A stretch of 47,256 bases of DNA from Phycisphaerae bacterium (GTDB lineage: Bacteria; Planctomycetota; Phycisphaerae; UBA1845), in assembly GCA_029260165.1 (NCBI GenBank), contig JAJDDT010000067.1, positions 1 through 47,256 of the forward strand, read 5' to 3'. Both the position numbers and the translations under genes were made by a program. Below, in pieces: positions 2,344 through 21,567 of this stretch (position 1 is the first letter of the stretch; the number at the start of each line of letters is the position of its first letter). The notes beneath the pieces are model-generated. The model searched no databases. It was not told the origin of the DNA and worked only from the letters and a program-made list of their open reading frames with translations.

Positions 2344-3399
2344 TTGGTTGGACAGTGCAACCTCACCGACGACGGCACGTTCAAGTACGTCTACGACGCC
2401 TGGAACCGGCTGGTGAAGGTGAAATCGTCGAATGACGATAGTATCATTATCGCCACCTACTCGTACGACGCCCTTGGCCGGCGGATCAAAAAGGTCGTCG
2501 AGAATCGTGGCGAGTTGGACGGGACGACGTTGTATTATTACAATAACCGCTGGCAACTGTTGGAAACGCGTGACGGGTCGGAGAGCCTCGACATGCAGAT
2601 CGTGCACGGGACGCAGTACATCGACGAGATCGTCCGCTTCGGCAAGGTCGGGCGAGGCGGGATGTTCGTCTATCAGGACGCCAACTGGAACGTGACGAGT
2701 GCCGTCGGCTTCAGCGGCATCGTGTTGGATCGCGTCACCACCACGCCGTATGGCCAACCAACATTCGATACGCAAACAGTCAACGGCGATTACGACGGCG
2801 ACGGTGATCTCGATTCCAGCGACGACAGCCAACTCAACACCTGTGTTATCGCCAGCACCGTCCCGGACACCTGCCGCATGTTCGACTACGACCTGGACGG
2901 CGACGTCGACACCGCCGACGAAACCCACTTCGACGCCCTCTACCCCGGCTCTGATGTCATCACGCGTTTCTTCGGACGCGAAAAAAGCAAGAACGGATTC
3001 CCCCATGCCAAACACGGTTTGCCGGTTGACTTTGAGGGACCTTTCGTAAGCCATTGGCCGCGTATTTATGCGATAAAGCTGCGCACGTTTATCCATCGCG
3101 ACAGAAGTAGCGAGATTTCGCGATCTGGTAACCGCCCAATCGGTGCCGGCGAATTCACCACAAGATACGAATTCGCAAACTCAAGGCCAGTTACGACGCA
3201 GGAACAGATTTCACCACCCTCACGGCCTCCGCTGTCAGATAACGGTGCTCACAGGCGCCCGCCGACTTTACCGTACCCTGTAGACCAACTTCCCGAGAAT
3301 CCTCATTTTCCACAAGATTCTGAGGAGCCCCCCTGCTTTTCATTATTCCAGATGAGTGCGACATCTAGATTTCAGGGCTTCTTTTGTGCAATCAGGTAG
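2344..3399 (+). pseudogene. displaced second RHS core copy with degenerate end
   Basis: The frame encodes 351 residues, but there is no N-terminal shell: it starts abruptly inside the YD repeats where the homology with the upstream RHS gene begins, without a ribosome binding site. It matches the upstream core through the PYG strand and the EF-hand insert. Afterwards the remaining core signals are decayed: RDPLGY is replaced by RDRSSE, the NLxxYxxxxP block is reduced to RYEFANSRPVT, and no DPxGL follows. The tail is Pro-rich with no recognisable domain. This is the structure of an orphan RHS cassette left by gene conversion or tip exchange. It could still donate sequence to the upstream gene by recombination. 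Expression as a separate protein is doubtful. Confidence 0.6.
2357..2963 (+). repeat. direct repeat, copy B (RHS core segment)
   Basis: Second copy of the segment at 10-616, in the same orientation and reading frame. Differences are mostly substitutions, many at third codon positions. Recombination between the two copies would swap the intervening tip and membrane-protein gene. Confidence 0.85.
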
Positions 3400-14249: not shown

Positions 14250-15023
14250 TCAGCCAACCGCACGGGCACTGACCGCCCCCCAAATCCCGTCCACCAGCAA
14301 CACCTTCGTCCCCGCCAAAAACAACGCGGCCAGATAAAGCCGACGAAACAACGACTCACTGACGTACTTCATCACCCGCGTCCCCAGGAGCGTCCCCGGA
14401 ATCACCATCACGATCATCAACACCCCAAGCTCACCAAGCCGCCCCACCTCAAGTCGCCCCAGCAACAGGAACGCGGGCAGCTTCGCCAAATGCGTCATCA
14501 TTTGACACACCGCCTTGGTCGCCACTAACCGCTCTTTCACGAAATCGCGTCGCACAAACAACGGCGCGATCAACGGACCAATCGCACCAACCGTCAGGGC
14601 AGCCGACCCCGCCACAAACCCAATCAACGGGAAATCCCACCACGTCCCCGGACGCGCCCCGTTCGTCGGCTTCGGTACAAACACCGAACCCAGCACATAA
14701 ACACCGACGACCATCTTCAGGTAAGGCTCGCTCTCGGTCACCTCACCCAACCAGAACAACAAACCCGCTCCAACCACCGCCCCGGGCAACATCCCCAGAC
14801 AGAACCGCCCACCCGTCCGCCAATCGACATGAGGCCAATACCCCAGGACGCGCGTCCCGTTGCTGGCCAACTGAACCGAAGCATGAATCGGAATCGCCTC
14901 GCCATGAGACAGAAAACTGAACATCACCGCCAACAACAACATCCCCCCACCCATCCCGATGATGGCCGAGATAGTCGATGTCACAAAAGCGGTGGCCGCA
15001 AGCACCATGTATTCAAGACTCAT
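14250..15023 (-). CDS. TauE/SafE family permease (sulfite exporter-like)
   Basis: A 257-residue inner-membrane protein with about eight hydrophobic segments. The N-terminal half has the family-typical SAIIGMGGGMLLL helix and the C-terminal half a matching GAIGPLIAPLF helix, the internal duplication expected of TauE/SafE (formerly DUF81) proteins. Members export sulfite, sulfoacetate or related organosulfur anions; the substrate here is unknown. Start at ATG 15023. It is convergent with the radical SAM gene with zero spacing and lies 56 bases after the protease gene on the same strand, so the two may share a transcript. Confidence 0.88.
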   Translation of the reverse strand: MSLEYMVLAATAFVTSTISAIIGMGGGMLLLAVMFSFLSHGEAIPIHASVQLASNGTRVLGYWPHVDWRTGGRFCLGMLPGAVVGAGLLFWLGEVTESEPYLKMVVGVYVLGSVFVPKPTNGARPGTWWDFPLIGFVAGSAALTVGAIGPLIAPLFVRRDFVKERLVATKAVCQMMTHLAKLPAFLLLGRLEVGRLGELGVLMIVMVIPGTLLGTRVMKYVSESLFRRLYLAALFLAGTKVLLVDGIWGAVSARAVG

Positions 15024-15079: not shown

Positions 15080-17407
15080 TCAATCTTTGTCTTTGTTGGG
15101 ATCATCAATGATGAAGCCCGCCTCGCGAATCTTGATTTGCGTTTCCTGGATTCCTGCGGTGGCTTTCTCTGAGTCGCGAGCAAGACGCTCCAACCGCTGA
15201 TTCAGCAGGCGCTGGCGGGACTCATTCCGCCGCCCTCCCCGTTGTCTCAACTCTTCCTCAACCTTCTGTCGGTCGGCTTGCATGCGGCCAAGCTCATTGC
15301 GGTGCAGATTCGCAACGACGCGCCAAAGCCGAACGAGATACTGCTCAGGTTGTCCCGCCGTCAGACGACTCGACACCAACAGCTTGTCCTCCGCATCCTC
15401 CGCACGCTTCAAGAGCTTGTTATACTCGCTTCGCTTGCCAACCTGCGTCGTCTCCAACGTCTCAATCGTCAGCTTCGCCTCCCTGACGAAGACTTCGGCC
15501 AACTGCTGACCAGCCCCTTCGTATGTGGCTGGCTGCGACAGAGGCTGACCATCGACCATGCCATCCTCAAACCGATCCATCAACGCCATCCGTGCCTTGG
15601 CACTCCAGCGAATATTCGCCGTTTTGGTGTTGTCCTTGTCCAGCTTACGAAACACCGAATACGATTCCTTCAGCTTGCCGGAACGGAACATCAACTCCCC
15701 ATCAAGGAAACGCAACTGTTGCTGTTTCTCCTCGGTCAACGAACGGTACATATCGCCGGCGATCAACGGCCTGGTCAACGACTCCGCCGCATCCATATCC
15801 CCCTTGTCCAGCGCCCTTGCAATCCGCAACAAACGCTCATCCGACGTCTGAATCGTCTCAGTCAGCGTAATCTCCCGAACCCTCATGTTCTCGGAATAAT
15901 CAACCAACCGAATATCACAATCTCCCTCGTCAAAATCGCCAAACGAGAACGTAATCCCGCGACGATCACACCAACTCAGTTTGCCGCCCAACTCATGCGA
16001 GGCAAAAGACCCCGTCATGCGCGAACCACCGGCCGTGGCCAATACACGATCAAAATCACCCGATATATTGCGAACGTCGGATACGGGAATCTGAACCTCA
16101 CCAAATACCTCATCCTCAAACGCAACCTTGCCCGTCACGTCCTGCAACGACAAACGCATTCCACTTCCCATCAACACATGCGACTCCCCTGATGGAATAC
16201 GAACGTCCCCCGTCGATTGGCGAAAACCAATGTGCGTCACATCGCCAAGAGGAACCTCCCGCGGCTTGCCTCCCGGAGGCTTGAACATCAACGTCGTTTC
16301 GTCCGGGTCAAAGGGCAACATATCGCCGCCCTCAACAAAGGCGATCATCCGATCCTCCTCCGCCACAATATAAGCCATCGCGGAGGTCGGAATCTCAATC
16401 TCACCAAGAGGCGTGGGTAAAGTGATCGTCTCACCCGCTACCGCACCACACATCCGGGCACCACCCTCAACCGAAATACAGTCCCGATTTGCCTCTCGCT
16501 CGAACATGGGGAAATCCCATGCCCGCTCTTCGGTCAGGAAAAGCTTGTAGAACGGTCGCAGGTCAACCCCCGCCTGAACCTTTCCCCGTCGAAACGAGGT
16601 TTGAATCATCTCATGCACAAGATCGCCGGGCACGAGCATTGTCGTATTCGCCTGCGCTTCCGATTGCGATCCCAACGTCAATACGCCGATCAACTGACCC
16701 TTGTCGTTAACGAACGGCCCACCACTGTTGCCCTGGTTTGCCAACACGTCCGTCTGAATCATCTTCAACCGACCTGATGGTGTGCGTTGCATCTCCGTGA
16801 TGTTTCCCCACGTTCGAGCCACTCGCGCATGATCACCCACGTTGCCCTTGCGACGATCACCACCTGGAAAACCGAAACACCACGCCCGCATCCCTTCATC
16901 AACCCATGTGGATGGGAAGAACTCCAGAAAATTCGGCGTCTCCAGATACTCTCCATCTTTGTCACGCGTTTGCAACACCGCGATATCAGCACGCTCATTC
17001 TGATAGAGAACGTCAGCCTTCCATTCCTTCTCTTCCTCGGTACCGCCATCCGTCACAACCGTCCAAACCAGACGATTCATCTGGTTCTTCAGCGCAAATT
17101 TCTCCTGTGGCGATTTCTGATGCCCGGGATCAACCACATGGTTATTCGTGATCGCCATCCCCGTACGATTCACGAAGAAACCGCTTCCGGAACCGAACGG
17201 TGTGTCGCCCTCCTTGTTCTTCGAGGAAGACGTAATCACCATCACCGCAGCGTGTTTCGTCTGTTCAAAAACCTCGGGCGGCATCCCCTCCGCGCGACAG
17301 GGACTCGCCCACCCCGACGACACAACCACCGCCGCCAAAGCAGCCACAGCCATGCCCCGACCAATCAACGCGAATCCGAATTGCCGAGTTGTGCTGGCAC
17401 ACGACAT
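15080..17407 (-). CDS. secreted trypsin-like serine protease with long C-terminal region
   Basis: A 775-residue exported protein. A signal peptide covers about residues 1-40 (MAVAALAAVVVSSGWA). The S1-type protease domain has a complete triad: His90 (TNNHVV), Asp141 (RADIAVL) and Ser228 (GNSGGPFV). There is no PDZ domain, unlike DegP. The middle carries two repeated beta-rich modules that look like a paired domain (GEIEIPTSAMAYI and GEVQIPVSDVRNI). A helical region and a C-terminal coiled coil rich in Arg/Gln/Glu (about residues 700-760) follow. The start at 17407 has GAGGAG seven bases upstream; an in-frame ATG 75 bases earlier has none and would bury the signal peptide. It likely acts in the periplasm or at the surface. 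Confidence 0.88.
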   Translation of the reverse strand: MSCASTTRQFGFALIGRGMAVAALAAVVVSSGWASPCRAEGMPPEVFEQTKHAAVMVITSSSKNKEGDTPFGSGSGFFVNRTGMAITNNHVVDPGHQKSPQEKFALKNQMNRLVWTVVTDGGTEEEKEWKADVLYQNERADIAVLQTRDKDGEYLETPNFLEFFPSTWVDEGMRAWCFGFPGGDRRKGNVGDHARVARTWGNITEMQRTPSGRLKMIQTDVLANQGNSGGPFVNDKGQLIGVLTLGSQSEAQANTTMLVPGDLVHEMIQTSFRRGKVQAGVDLRPFYKLFLTEERAWDFPMFEREANRDCISVEGGARMCGAVAGETITLPTPLGEIEIPTSAMAYIVAEEDRMIAFVEGGDMLPFDPDETTLMFKPPGGKPREVPLGDVTHIGFRQSTGDVRIPSGESHVLMGSGMRLSLQDVTGKVAFEDEVFGEVQIPVSDVRNISGDFDRVLATAGGSRMTGSFASHELGGKLSWCDRRGITFSFGDFDEGDCDIRLVDYSENMRVREITLTETIQTSDERLLRIARALDKGDMDAAESLTRPLIAGDMYRSLTEEKQQQLRFLDGELMFRSGKLKESYSVFRKLDKDNTKTANIRWSAKARMALMDRFEDGMVDGQPLSQPATYEGAGQQLAEVFVREAKLTIETLETTQVGKRSEYNKLLKRAEDAEDKLLVSSRLTAGQPEQYLVRLWRVVANLHRNELGRMQADRQKVEEELRQRGGRRNESRQRLLNQRLERLARDSEKATAGIQETQIKIREAGFIIDDPNKDKD

Positions 17408-17641
17408 GACCAATCTCCTCGATGACACCTGTATATCAATCTCTGGCCCGCCCGGAAACGAACCCATCCCTATCATAACCAAACTCGCCCATAAAACATT
17501 CTACGTTACACCCGTTTTCCAATCAATATCGGTAAAAACCTGCACGACCCGCCCCGTCTTTCACGCGGGCAGGGTTGGCGACCGCATCAATCCGGAATAA
17601 AATCTCCACGAGAGACGTTCAATTGACGAGGAATCATCATC

Positions 17642-17827
17642 ATGACACCACTGGCCATCATCGCAACGCTCGCCGGCGCGGGAATGGGCGGATCGCTCGC
17701 CTGGTTCGTCGGAAAAAACAAAAAATCCTGTGCCACCGGGGGTGGCTGAGGAACCTTGAACCCGCTCACAGGCGCCATCTACGGCGCCCTGCTGGGCTGG
17801 ATGATCGTGGCAGGTCTGTCACAATAA
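17642..17827 (+). CDS. 61-residue DUF6132-like membrane protein with an in-frame UGA (possible selenoprotein)
   Basis: Translating from ATG 17642 (GAGGA nine bases upstream) gives a glycine-zipper helix (IIATLAGAGMGGSLAWFVG), a short basic loop, SCATGGG, then TGA at 17747-17749. The same frame continues with GTLNPLTGAIYGALLGW, a second helix, and TAA at 17825. This layout (helix, CxxG-type loop, NP-x-IYGALLG helix) is that of a DUF6132-like family, in which the loop before NP normally carries a second Cys. Reading the UGA as selenocysteine therefore restores a CX5U pair in a full-length family member. A stable hairpin lies 20-42 bases after the UGA. Alternatives are a nonsense mutation, a base-call error, or a truncated 35-residue peptide. 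Sec is inference; the two-part homology is what I see. The family assignment is from memory of the family. Confidence 0.55.
17769..17791 (+). promoter_or_regulatory. hairpin downstream of the in-frame UGA (SECIS candidate)
   Basis: CAGG-CGCC pairs with GGCG-CCUG (one bulged C) around loop AUCUAC, which starts 28 bases after the UGA. That distance fits bacterial SECIS elements (about 16-37), but the loop lacks the G usually needed in its first two positions. A second hairpin, GCCACC-GGG-GGTGGC at 17732-17746, ends exactly at the UGA. Confidence 0.3.
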
Positions 17828-17870
17828 CCCCAACACGTTAATCTCACACAGCAAAGCAGGCCTGTTGACC

Positions 17871-18242
17871 ATGCCCGATCCATCCATCATCGAGACGTTT
17901 GAAAACCCCAACCCCGACCGAAATTACGTCATCACGCACACTGCTACGGAATTCACCAGTCTCTGCCCCGTAACAGGACAGCCTGACTTTGGAAAATTCA
18001 CTCTCCGTTACATCGCAGACAAAACCTGCATCGAACTTCGCAGCCTAAAGCTATACTTACATTCATACCGCAACGAGGGTATCTTCTACGAGGCTGTCAC
18101 CAACAGCATTTTGACCGACCTGGTGGCTTCCTGTTCGCCTCGCTGGATGGAGATACAGTCTCACTGGACCGTTCGCGGTGGAATTCGCACGGACGTTCTG
18201 GTACGCCACGGCGACGATTCGATCGTGCCGCCCCGTCTTTGA
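17871..18242 (+). CDS. queF: NADPH-dependent 7-cyano-7-deazaguanine (preQ0) reductase
   Basis: QueF reduces the nitrile of preQ0 to preQ1 in queuosine biosynthesis, in the cytosol. The 123 residues match the short, single-domain (YkvM-type) form. The catalytic Cys is Cys32 in SLCPVTGQPDFG, and the NADPH/substrate signature is ELRSLKLYLHSYR with a following FYE. The ATG at 17871 is preferred to an in-frame TTG six bases upstream; the ribosome binding site is weak (GCAGG), which suggests coupling to the small gene ending 43 bases before. I see no preQ1 riboswitch in that short gap. No other queuosine gene is in the window. Confidence 0.94.
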   Translation: MPDPSIIETFENPNPDRNYVITHTATEFTSLCPVTGQPDFGKFTLRYIADKTCIELRSLKLYLHSYRNEGIFYEAVTNSILTDLVASCSPRWMEIQSHWTVRGGIRTDVLVRHGDDSIVPPRL

Positions 18243-19943: not shown

Positions 19944-20157
19944 CGAATCTTACACAAATTCACCATTCACCTGTTGGCCACCTTGCAGCGATGACCGAAT
20001 TCCGGCGATATCCCGCAATCGTCGCAACACCGCCAACTGAATAAAGCACCGCTTGATCGCAGCAGACTGCCCGTTCCGAATTGATTCTGTCAGCGTGTTT
20101 CGTTACCATCGCAGGCAGAGCCGCGACCGCGTAACAACTCATTCCGGAGGCTGGAAG

Positions 20158-21567
20158 ATGAAATCCATTCTCGCAACGCTTTTGTCGGTCGTTATGTCAA
20201 CGCAACTCCTCGCAGTCGGCGACTGCTACACCGGTGACAAGGACTGCGATGATGGTAACGCCTGCACGAATGACTTGTGCACCTTCGACAGCGGCTTCGT
20301 CTGTGTTCACGGCTTCAACTTTGACGTCACCTCGCGTTGTTGTGATCCTGCCACGGGATACACGAGAATACTGTCCGATGATGATCCCTGCACACTGGAC
20401 GTTTGCGATGACAACGGCGGTCCCGTTCATATAGACATCACACCGGATTGTGGGCCGGGGCCTACCCGCGTGTTTTTCGTACCCGCCGGGGTCGATCCTG
20501 TCGACGTACTGCTCGACCCGAACTTTGAACACGTCGTGGACGCCGGCACCACGCTCACGATCGAAGCCTTCGTTTTTCTCAACGACGTCGCTGTCAGGAA
20601 AATTCTCATACAGAGTAGATGTGATTTCCTCAGCGACCAAACCACCGCACCTGCGGTGCAACTGGTCGCCAATTCTGTCGTTCAGGACGGATCACGGCTG
20701 GACTGGTTCGGGCAGGACGGCGCGGTAGTCGGCGTTCGCGAACAGGGTTCGTGCGGGGATCTGTGCCCCGATCCAAGCCTGGGGTCGTGCGGCATCCCGT
20801 GCATTCCGAGTCCTGATTCTTGCCCTGGAGGTACATTGTGTCAGCTTGGAGTTTGCTCGATCTCTCCTCCGATATTGGGCATCGGCAGCCTGGTCGGCCC
20901 GCTCTCGCCGTCCGGGCCACGCTATCTTGGCGAAATGCAATACAATATCCACGAAGATGCGGTTGGCACCTACACATTCCGACCCGAATGCTGCGTCAAC
21001 GACGCGGACTGCGACGGCGTCGCCGACGGCGGATGCGTTGTCAGCTTCACCATCCTTGACTACGGCATCACCCCACTCGACATCGTCATCCCCCTCATCG
21101 TCACGATCCAAACCGGTGACTGCCTCGCCGGTGACACCTGCACCCCGGACGTCACGCGCACCGAATGCGAAAACAACCTTGGCGGCACGTTCCGCCCGGA
21201 TGGCACCTGTGGCTGCTTCGACGATACCGACTGTGTCGATCTCAACCTTTGCACGACCGACACCTGCGCCGACATCGGTGGGCAATGCCCGGACGGCTCC
21301 CAACCGGACAACAACAACTGCTGTCGCCTCGACCTCATACGCGCCGAATTCTGCTGCGACCCCGCGACCGCCCGGCTGGTCCTGCGCACCGACGCCAACG
21401 CCTGCACCATCGACACCTGTGACCAGAACGGCGAACCCGTCCACGAGCCGATCCCCGGCTGCGACATCGGCTCCCCGATTCCAACGCTGACCCCGTGGGG
21501 CCAAGCGACCATGATGATTGTCCTGACCATAGCCCTCGCCCTGACCGCAAGACGAAGAACCGCATAA
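20158..21567 (+). CDS. secreted Cys-rich protein with IPTL-CTERM sorting signal
   Basis: A 469-residue exported protein. A signal peptide (LATLLSVVMSTQLLA) is followed by Cys-rich repeats of the form DxxxCTxDxC (DGNACTNDLC, DDPCTLDVC, DLNLCTTDTC, DANACTIDTC) in two clusters near the two ends; between them is a beta-rich domain of about 200 residues. The C-terminus is a textbook tripartite sorting signal: IPTLTPWG, a hydrophobic helix, and the basic end ARRRTA. IPTL-CTERM proteins are thought to be processed by exosortase H. GGAGG lies seven bases before ATG 20158, which rules out the earlier in-frame start at 20053. The function is unknown; it is probably a cell-surface or matrix protein. Confidence 0.87.
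   Translation: MKSILATLLSVVMSTQLLAVGDCYTGDKDCDDGNACTNDLCTFDSGFVCVHGFNFDVTSRCCDPATGYTRILSDDDPCTLDVCDDNGGPVHIDITPDCGPGPTRVFFVPAGVDPVDVLLDPNFEHVVDAGTTLTIEAFVFLNDVAVRKILIQSRCDFLSDQTTAPAVQLVANSVVQDGSRLDWFGQDGAVVGVREQGSCGDLCPDPSLGSCGIPCIPSPDSCPGGTLCQLGVCSISPPILGIGSLVGPLSPSGPRYLGEMQYNIHEDAVGTYTFRPECCVNDADCDGVADGGCVVSFTILDYGITPLDIVIPLIVTIQTGDCLAGDTCTPDVTRTECENNLGGTFRPDGTCGCFDDTDCVDLNLCTTDTCADIGGQCPDGSQPDNNNCCRLDLIRAEFCCDPATARLVLRTDANACTIDTCDQNGEPVHEPIPGCDIGSPIPTLTPWGQATMMIVLTIALALTARRRTA

Follow-up and report, generated by a model that had tools for sequence, protein, structure and literature searches.

Selenocysteine (Sec) is found in the active sites of oxidoreductases (PMC1794560), and the inventory of prokaryotic selenoproteins of May 2026 lists, in its Table 1, 119 families and subfamilies (PMC13188914); selenoprotein candidates of two planctomycetes are collected in the supplement of another study (PMC4807772). 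In the standard bacterial SECIS (bSECIS) model the UGA is followed at a distance of 16-37 nt by a stem-loop with a loop of 3-9 nt, an MFE of -7.5 kcal/mol or lower and a G as the first or second base of the loop, a model that certain selenoprotein genes do not meet (PMC13188914). Among protein families the closest described system is DUF6132 (PF19628), the Cys form of which combines two glycine-rich helices with a pair of Cys, followed by a conserved Pro ahead of the second helix, a layout shared by the UGA-containing proteins discussed here, in which Sec (U) would occupy the site of the second Cys.

The stretch of DNA analysed, hereafter the window, comprises 47,256 nucleotides of a contig of a Phycisphaerae bacterium and contains, at 17642..17827 on the forward strand, a small gene interrupted by an in-frame UGA, which very probably encodes a selenoprotein with Sec at codon 36. 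The case is made by computation, from the reading frame, the conserved UGA, the presence of the Sec machinery, the alternation of Sec and Cys among homologues and the nucleotide constraint after the UGA.

The gene and its UGA-containing orthologues

The gene opens at ATG 17642, 9 bases after a ribosome-binding-like GAGGA (17628..17632, forward strand), and runs through 35 codons, the TGA at 17747-17749 (forward strand, codon 36, predicted Sec) and 25 further codons to TAA 17825-17827, the frame reading MTPLAIIATLAGAGMGGSLAWFVGKNKKSCATGGG-UGA-GTLNPLTGAIYGALLGWMIVAGLSQ-TAA. The single frame with a good ribosome binding site and an internal UGA, described in an earlier note on this DNA, was confirmed with its translation, as was the warning that standard gene callers would truncate the gene: the ordinary ORF list (table 11) shows only a stub of 35 amino acids, so that routine listing cuts the gene short. 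With the UGA read as Sec, the frame, the alignment of homologues and a low-confidence structure model (mean pLDDT 63) point to a protein of 61 amino acids, with helices at residues 3-25 and 41-59 and a C-x5-U motif in the loop between them. The Cys of this motif, Cys30 (codon 17729..17731, forward strand), is invariant across eight aligned UGA proteins. Scans with Pfam, PHROGs and NCBIfam gave no credible family for the window protein, and NCBIfam was equally without a credible match for the ten other UGA members; a PDB profile search, a single-sequence search of a genome contig collection and a scan of viral contigs (one) returned no match.

Searched with the single sequence, 114 genomes of the order yielded eight members including that of the window, and a profile built from these eight recovered a ninth (genome G085). 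All nine carry one TGA each, at the same aligned site; in the remaining 105 of the 114 genomes the searches found no gene of this type. In the single-sequence search the 15 rows that followed the first eight were set aside; nine of them were inspected and judged unrelated, and among the rows set aside L035-L038, L040 and L043 (E 0.046-0.087) were not inspected. In the profile search L083-L088 were set aside, all but L087 after inspection. Eight more genomes of the order share this frame with its UGA at the same aligned position, so that the UGA frame of the window is not due to chance. The first Cys and U are separated by 2-5 residues in the order members and by 4 in the further UGA members L091 and L098; the motif CxxU occurs in four order members, as CGTU or CGSU.

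The gene is flanked upstream by a trypsin-like protease gene (15080..17482, reverse strand; from the ORF list and the comparison of loci) and downstream by a QueF-like gene (17865..18242, forward strand), both of which adjoin it in seven of the eight other order loci, the exception being G066. An NtrC-like gene lies nearby in seven and a TauE-like gene in five of these eight loci, some contigs ending close by. At L108 and L109 the small gene is known from sequence searches alone. In the window the product of 14250-15023 (reverse strand), one gene removed from the Sec gene, is presumably a TauE/SafE-like permease, a possible link to sulfur. Elsewhere in the window, 20053-21567 (forward strand) encodes a Cys-rich protein ending in IPTLTPWGQATMMIVLTIALALTARRRTA, which we take to be akin to an IPTL-CTERM sorting tail, and 66-1415 and 2344-3399 (forward strand) are two very similar tandem ORFs with different ends, presumably for YD/RHS-repeat proteins.

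Cysteine homologues, the relation with DUF6132 and possible function

UGA alternates with TGC/TGT among the homologues: the seven that lack UGA (L089, L090, L092, L093, L095, L096 and L097) all have Cys at the site, none has Trp, and all are single uninterrupted proteins. A profile of the UGA proteins, built without any Cys form, matches the Cys forms L089 (E 4.4e-6), L090 (1.7e-6) and L092 (1.5e-4), as well as L091 (7.6e-5), a UGA member from outside the order whose genome has selA. UGA members outside the order occur in genomes G164 and G455, both with selA, and G066 carries both forms, the Cys one being L089. Against the PF19628 cut-off of 23.2 bits, L089 and L091 score 35 and L090 scores 50, and the UGA members L098 (31.2) and L028 (24.8) are also above it; L092 (16.2) falls below, L025 (20.8) and L026 (21.6) only just so, and the Pfam scan, which covered neither L024 nor L082, gave no DUF6132 match for L022, L023 and L027.

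The kinship with DUF6132, which the earlier note had proposed, has thus been computed by profile searches and by hhalign (96.9% for the window protein against the Cys member L090), but the window protein itself has no match to PF19628 at the gathering score of 23.2. A PF19628 search of 392 genomes of the phylum gave matches at E <= 0.001 in at least nine genomes, five of them with Cys forms, two with UGA forms (L091/L099 and L098) and two judged spurious on inspection (L100 and L101), of which L101 was rejected as a dockerin-like chance match though above the cut-off with its neighbours. The 392 genomes are a sample of a larger group, and scoring was limited to 15-16 candidates in each, so that the counts are lower bounds; the phylum search with the UGA-protein profile did not list L093 and L095-L098, and that with PF19628 did not list the window and L092.

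The second Cys that the earlier note placed close to the UGA position is indeed present in the Cys forms, at the site or adjoining it, and the misalignment by one residue that it feared is real, in that an ungapped hhalign alignment sets the U of the window on the Pro that follows the L090 Cys. The seven Cys forms, together with L026 and L091 among the UGA forms, have the conserved Pro at a distance of six residues from their C or U; for the window and the seven remaining members of the order this distance is five, and L098 lacks the conserved Pro after U. Since L026 bridges the two arrangements, the offset of the window U from the family Cys is explained by the loss of one residue after U. 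In the Cys forms the two Cys are 3-4 residues apart. Four Cys-form genomes (G207, G127, G495 and G348) carry selA, so that Cys forms do not simply mark the absence of Sec; selA was not found in the Cys-form genomes G423 and G454 (64% and 61% complete). In a tree of 18 short rows the nine UGA proteins of the order group together (84/65) and those of G164 and G455 lie elsewhere, a tree too weak for counting origins.

As to function, Sec occurs in active sites of oxidoreductases, which makes the second Cys of DUF6132 the probable reactive residue and would provide this uncharacterised domain with a testable chemistry. A thioredoxin domain follows in the same frame in the Cys homologues L090, L092 and L095; L095 adjoins two sulfur-transport genes (PF04143), L096 adjoins rhodanese and DUF1858 genes, and L090 precedes a pyridine-nucleotide disulfide oxidoreductase. 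From these fusions to thioredoxin and the proximity to sulfur-transport and rhodanese genes a thioredoxin-like partner is proposed for the window protein. Both of its helices may be embedded in the membrane, its Cys-Sec pair may form a reversible selenylsulfide, and the protein may exchange electrons or sulfur with such a partner. According to the positive-inside rule, Lys-rich loops point to the cytoplasmic side, and the Lys-rich loop of the window protein suggests that this loop may be cytoplasmic. That the protein forms a hairpin in the membrane and uses its Cys-Sec pair for redox chemistry together with a thioredoxin-like or sulfur-transfer partner is a proposal for which the case is evenly balanced. 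A selenoprotein with a structural or a metal- or selenium-binding role, rather than one in thioredoxin-linked redox chemistry or sulfur transfer, is a somewhat less than probable but serious alternative: judged by their names, the genes immediately flanking that of the window (protease, QueF) do not belong to thiol redox or sulfur metabolism, and a Cys-to-Sec spacing varying from 2 to 5 residues suits a flexible site better than a fixed CxxC fold. However, three Cys homologues run into a thioredoxin domain and others stand beside sulfur-handling genes.

Selenocysteine machinery, RNA element and decoding of the UGA

The host genome (4.43 Mb in 119 contigs, with a listed completeness of 100% and a contamination of 1.71%) was searched for selA, selB, selC and selD, as the earlier note had advised, and contains the full set: a tRNA-Sec (scoring 68.1 bits where the cut-off is 47; anticodon TCA), selB (361.3 bits with neighbours in frame), selA directly after it (541.6 bits) and selD (367.8 bits), which has a Sec-UGA of its own, its one in-frame TGA yielding SCAGUAGK. 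In the order selA is matched in 99 of the 114 genomes at E <= 0.001 (93 above the cut-off) and selD in 99 of 114 at E <= 1e-60; the genomes with the UGA gene have both in all nine cases, the selD sequence of G084 ending before its Sec site. Side observations on these genes are an in-frame TGA in the selA of one order genome (G074:C353:463-1812) and longer SelD-type frames with Cys (GLGCACK; L044-L051, L053 and L054), some genomes with such frames, e.g. G066, G077 and G049, additionally having a UGA-type SelD. With this equipment ribosomes would insert Sec at UGA 36 with the help of SelB, tRNA-Sec and a stem-loop that follows shortly after the codon.

A candidate for the latter is the SECIS-like stem-loop at 17761..17800 (forward strand), the lowest-energy hairpin found by folding (-22.6 kcal/mol), with a 6-base apical loop at 17777-17782 (AUCUAC). 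It corresponds to the hairpin of the earlier note, with the loop starting 27 nt after the UGA, and the lack of G remarked on there holds for the first two loop bases. Compared with the standard bSECIS model, the stem-loop agrees in size, distance and energy but departs from it in the missing loop G, so that the window gene fails the bacterial SECIS check, and no alternative hairpin scanned passes it. With any hairpin admitted, the loop-G test is passed by 8 of 11 UGA genes, 6 of 7 Cys homologues and 21 of 21 UGA-type SelD; since it fails to discriminate between UGA and Cys genes, the test was not used as support. In the SelD gene of the host one hairpin agrees with all the bSECIS terms, though not its lowest-energy hairpin. 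Rfam gave no match at 17600-17900, and RNAalifold on eight sequences returned only a weak consensus fold (-0.89 kcal/mol), which was not used as support.

Excess structure was evaluated against synonymous re-codings with the codon usage of each locus, over 54 bases on each side of the UGA. After the UGA the window has a z value of -3.06, only 0.3% of 600 re-codings folding equally well; the mean is -1.84 for the nine members of the order, -1.69 when all 11 UGA genes are taken and -0.39 for the seven Cys homologues (11 versus 7, Mann-Whitney p 0.022), and before the UGA it is -0.28 in the 11 UGA genes. Excess structure is weak or modest in three order members (L026, -0.16; L027, -0.30; L023, -1.00) and strong in the Cys gene L096 (-2.56); with L096 strongly structured and L026 and L027 near zero, it is a trend and not a rule. 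The earlier note had also pointed to a second hairpin abutting the UGA upstream: the inverted repeat GCCACC-GGG-GGTGGC is there (17732..17746, forward strand), but the 54 bases before the UGA have no excess structure (z -0.14), and the repeat is probably incidental.

When the nine members are compared in pairs, which are not independent, 32 of the 36 pairs have a lower synonymous difference behind the UGA than ahead of it (column-permutation p 0.0015). The pS value falls from 0.72 before the UGA to 0.55 in columns 36-54 and to 0.18 in columns 55-61; since synonymous sites are slowest beyond the hairpin, the latter does not explain all of the constraint. The extreme pair is that of the window and its nearest relative, with dS of 0.17 after and 2.8 before the UGA; the corresponding values are 0.65 and 1.06 for L028/L082 and 0.63 and 1.33 for L027/L028. 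Excess structure and low synonymous divergence together indicate selection on an RNA element directly after the UGA, with L026, L027, L023 and L096 as exceptions, and the stem-loop at 17761-17800 may be the SECIS.

Other ways of decoding the UGA have been weighed. Reading it as tryptophan in a reassigned code, or by leaky readthrough without selenium, predicts the same full-length frame but is very improbable given the complete Sec machinery, the Sec-UGA in selD and the presence of Cys, never Trp, in the homologues without UGA. Furthermore, the QueF-like gene ends in TGA as a normal stop, which implies that UGA also works as a stop in the host, and by alignment it is the terminal stop of the family members L024 and L028 themselves. 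Still less probable is that the UGA is a true stop releasing a one-helix peptide of 35 residues, the remainder being a decaying relic. The failure of the window hairpin on the SECIS loop-G rule would favour it, but none of the nine UGA members found in the order has lost the second half or has a decaying tail, the internal stop is UGA in nine out of nine, and P41, A45, G48, G58 and S60 after the UGA are invariant in the eight aligned members. Moreover, of 28 pairs among eight members (L026 being left out) 24 have a pN/pS below 1 in the part that follows the UGA, with a value of 0.18 for L028/L082. The remaining four pairs lie at 1.07-1.31, the value of 1.31 coming from the window paired with its nearest relative, a comparison with exceptionally few synonymous changes. 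That the halves are two small proteins, with re-initiation starting the second, is scarcely credible: the UGA does sit between two helices, codon 39 of the window is an in-frame TTG with a GAGGA overlapping the UGA three bases 5' of it, and L027 and L082 have GTG directly after the UGA, but the second start is not conserved, with no start codon there in L022, L024, L025, L026 and L028, and the Cys homologues are uninterrupted. The selenoprotein proposed in the earlier note is supported by the Sec machinery, the conserved UGA, the Sec/Cys alternation and the undecayed tails; among the checks run, only the SECIS model, which the window gene fails, does not favour it.

Comparison with known systems

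The gene product, which would consist of two glycine-rich helices with Cys and Sec in the connecting loop and would be homologous to DUF6132 proteins with Cys in place of Sec, appears to represent a so far unlisted DUF6132-related family of selenium-containing redox proteins. DUF6132 is absent from the 119 prokaryotic families and subfamilies of Table 1 of PMC13188914, to which the family would be an addition. Among the matches listed in literature searches (DUF6132, PF19628, planctomycete selenoproteins, SECIS, hairpin/glycine-zipper) no paper on such a protein was recognised from titles and abstracts, the sole DUF6132 match being, by title and abstract, on another subject; a mention in the supplement of PMC4807772 is possible.

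Taken together, the observations can be joined in a broader and tentative reading, which as a whole is rather unlikely to hold in every part. The family may have arisen more than once from DUF6132 Cys proteins and may link a thioredoxin-like partner to a sulfur-transport system in the membrane by passing electrons, or sulfur or selenium, between them, with, in the order, an atypical SECIS devoid of the loop guanine that would be served by the same SelB as the standard-looking SECIS of selD. The standard stem-loop of selD and that of the window without the loop G offer a contrast within one genome for the study of recognition by SelB.

With respect to the DUF6132 Cys form, the UGA members differ by the replacement of the second Cys with Sec and by having no Pro directly after it; eight of the nine order members are also one residue shorter up to the conserved Pro, and the window protein is below Pfam detection. 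The DUF6132-thioredoxin fusions (L090 and L095, with the similar L092 below the DUF6132 cut-off) have the same hairpin, with C-x4-C or C-x3-C, but carry the thioredoxin domain in the chain, whereas the window protein stands alone. Finally, among the entries of Table 1 of PMC13188914, the DUF1858 protein (CxxU) and the YeeE/YedE transporter (GUxSG) share with the family a Cys-Sec pair, of the CxxU type in four order members, or a sulfur-handling context, but belong to other Pfam families.
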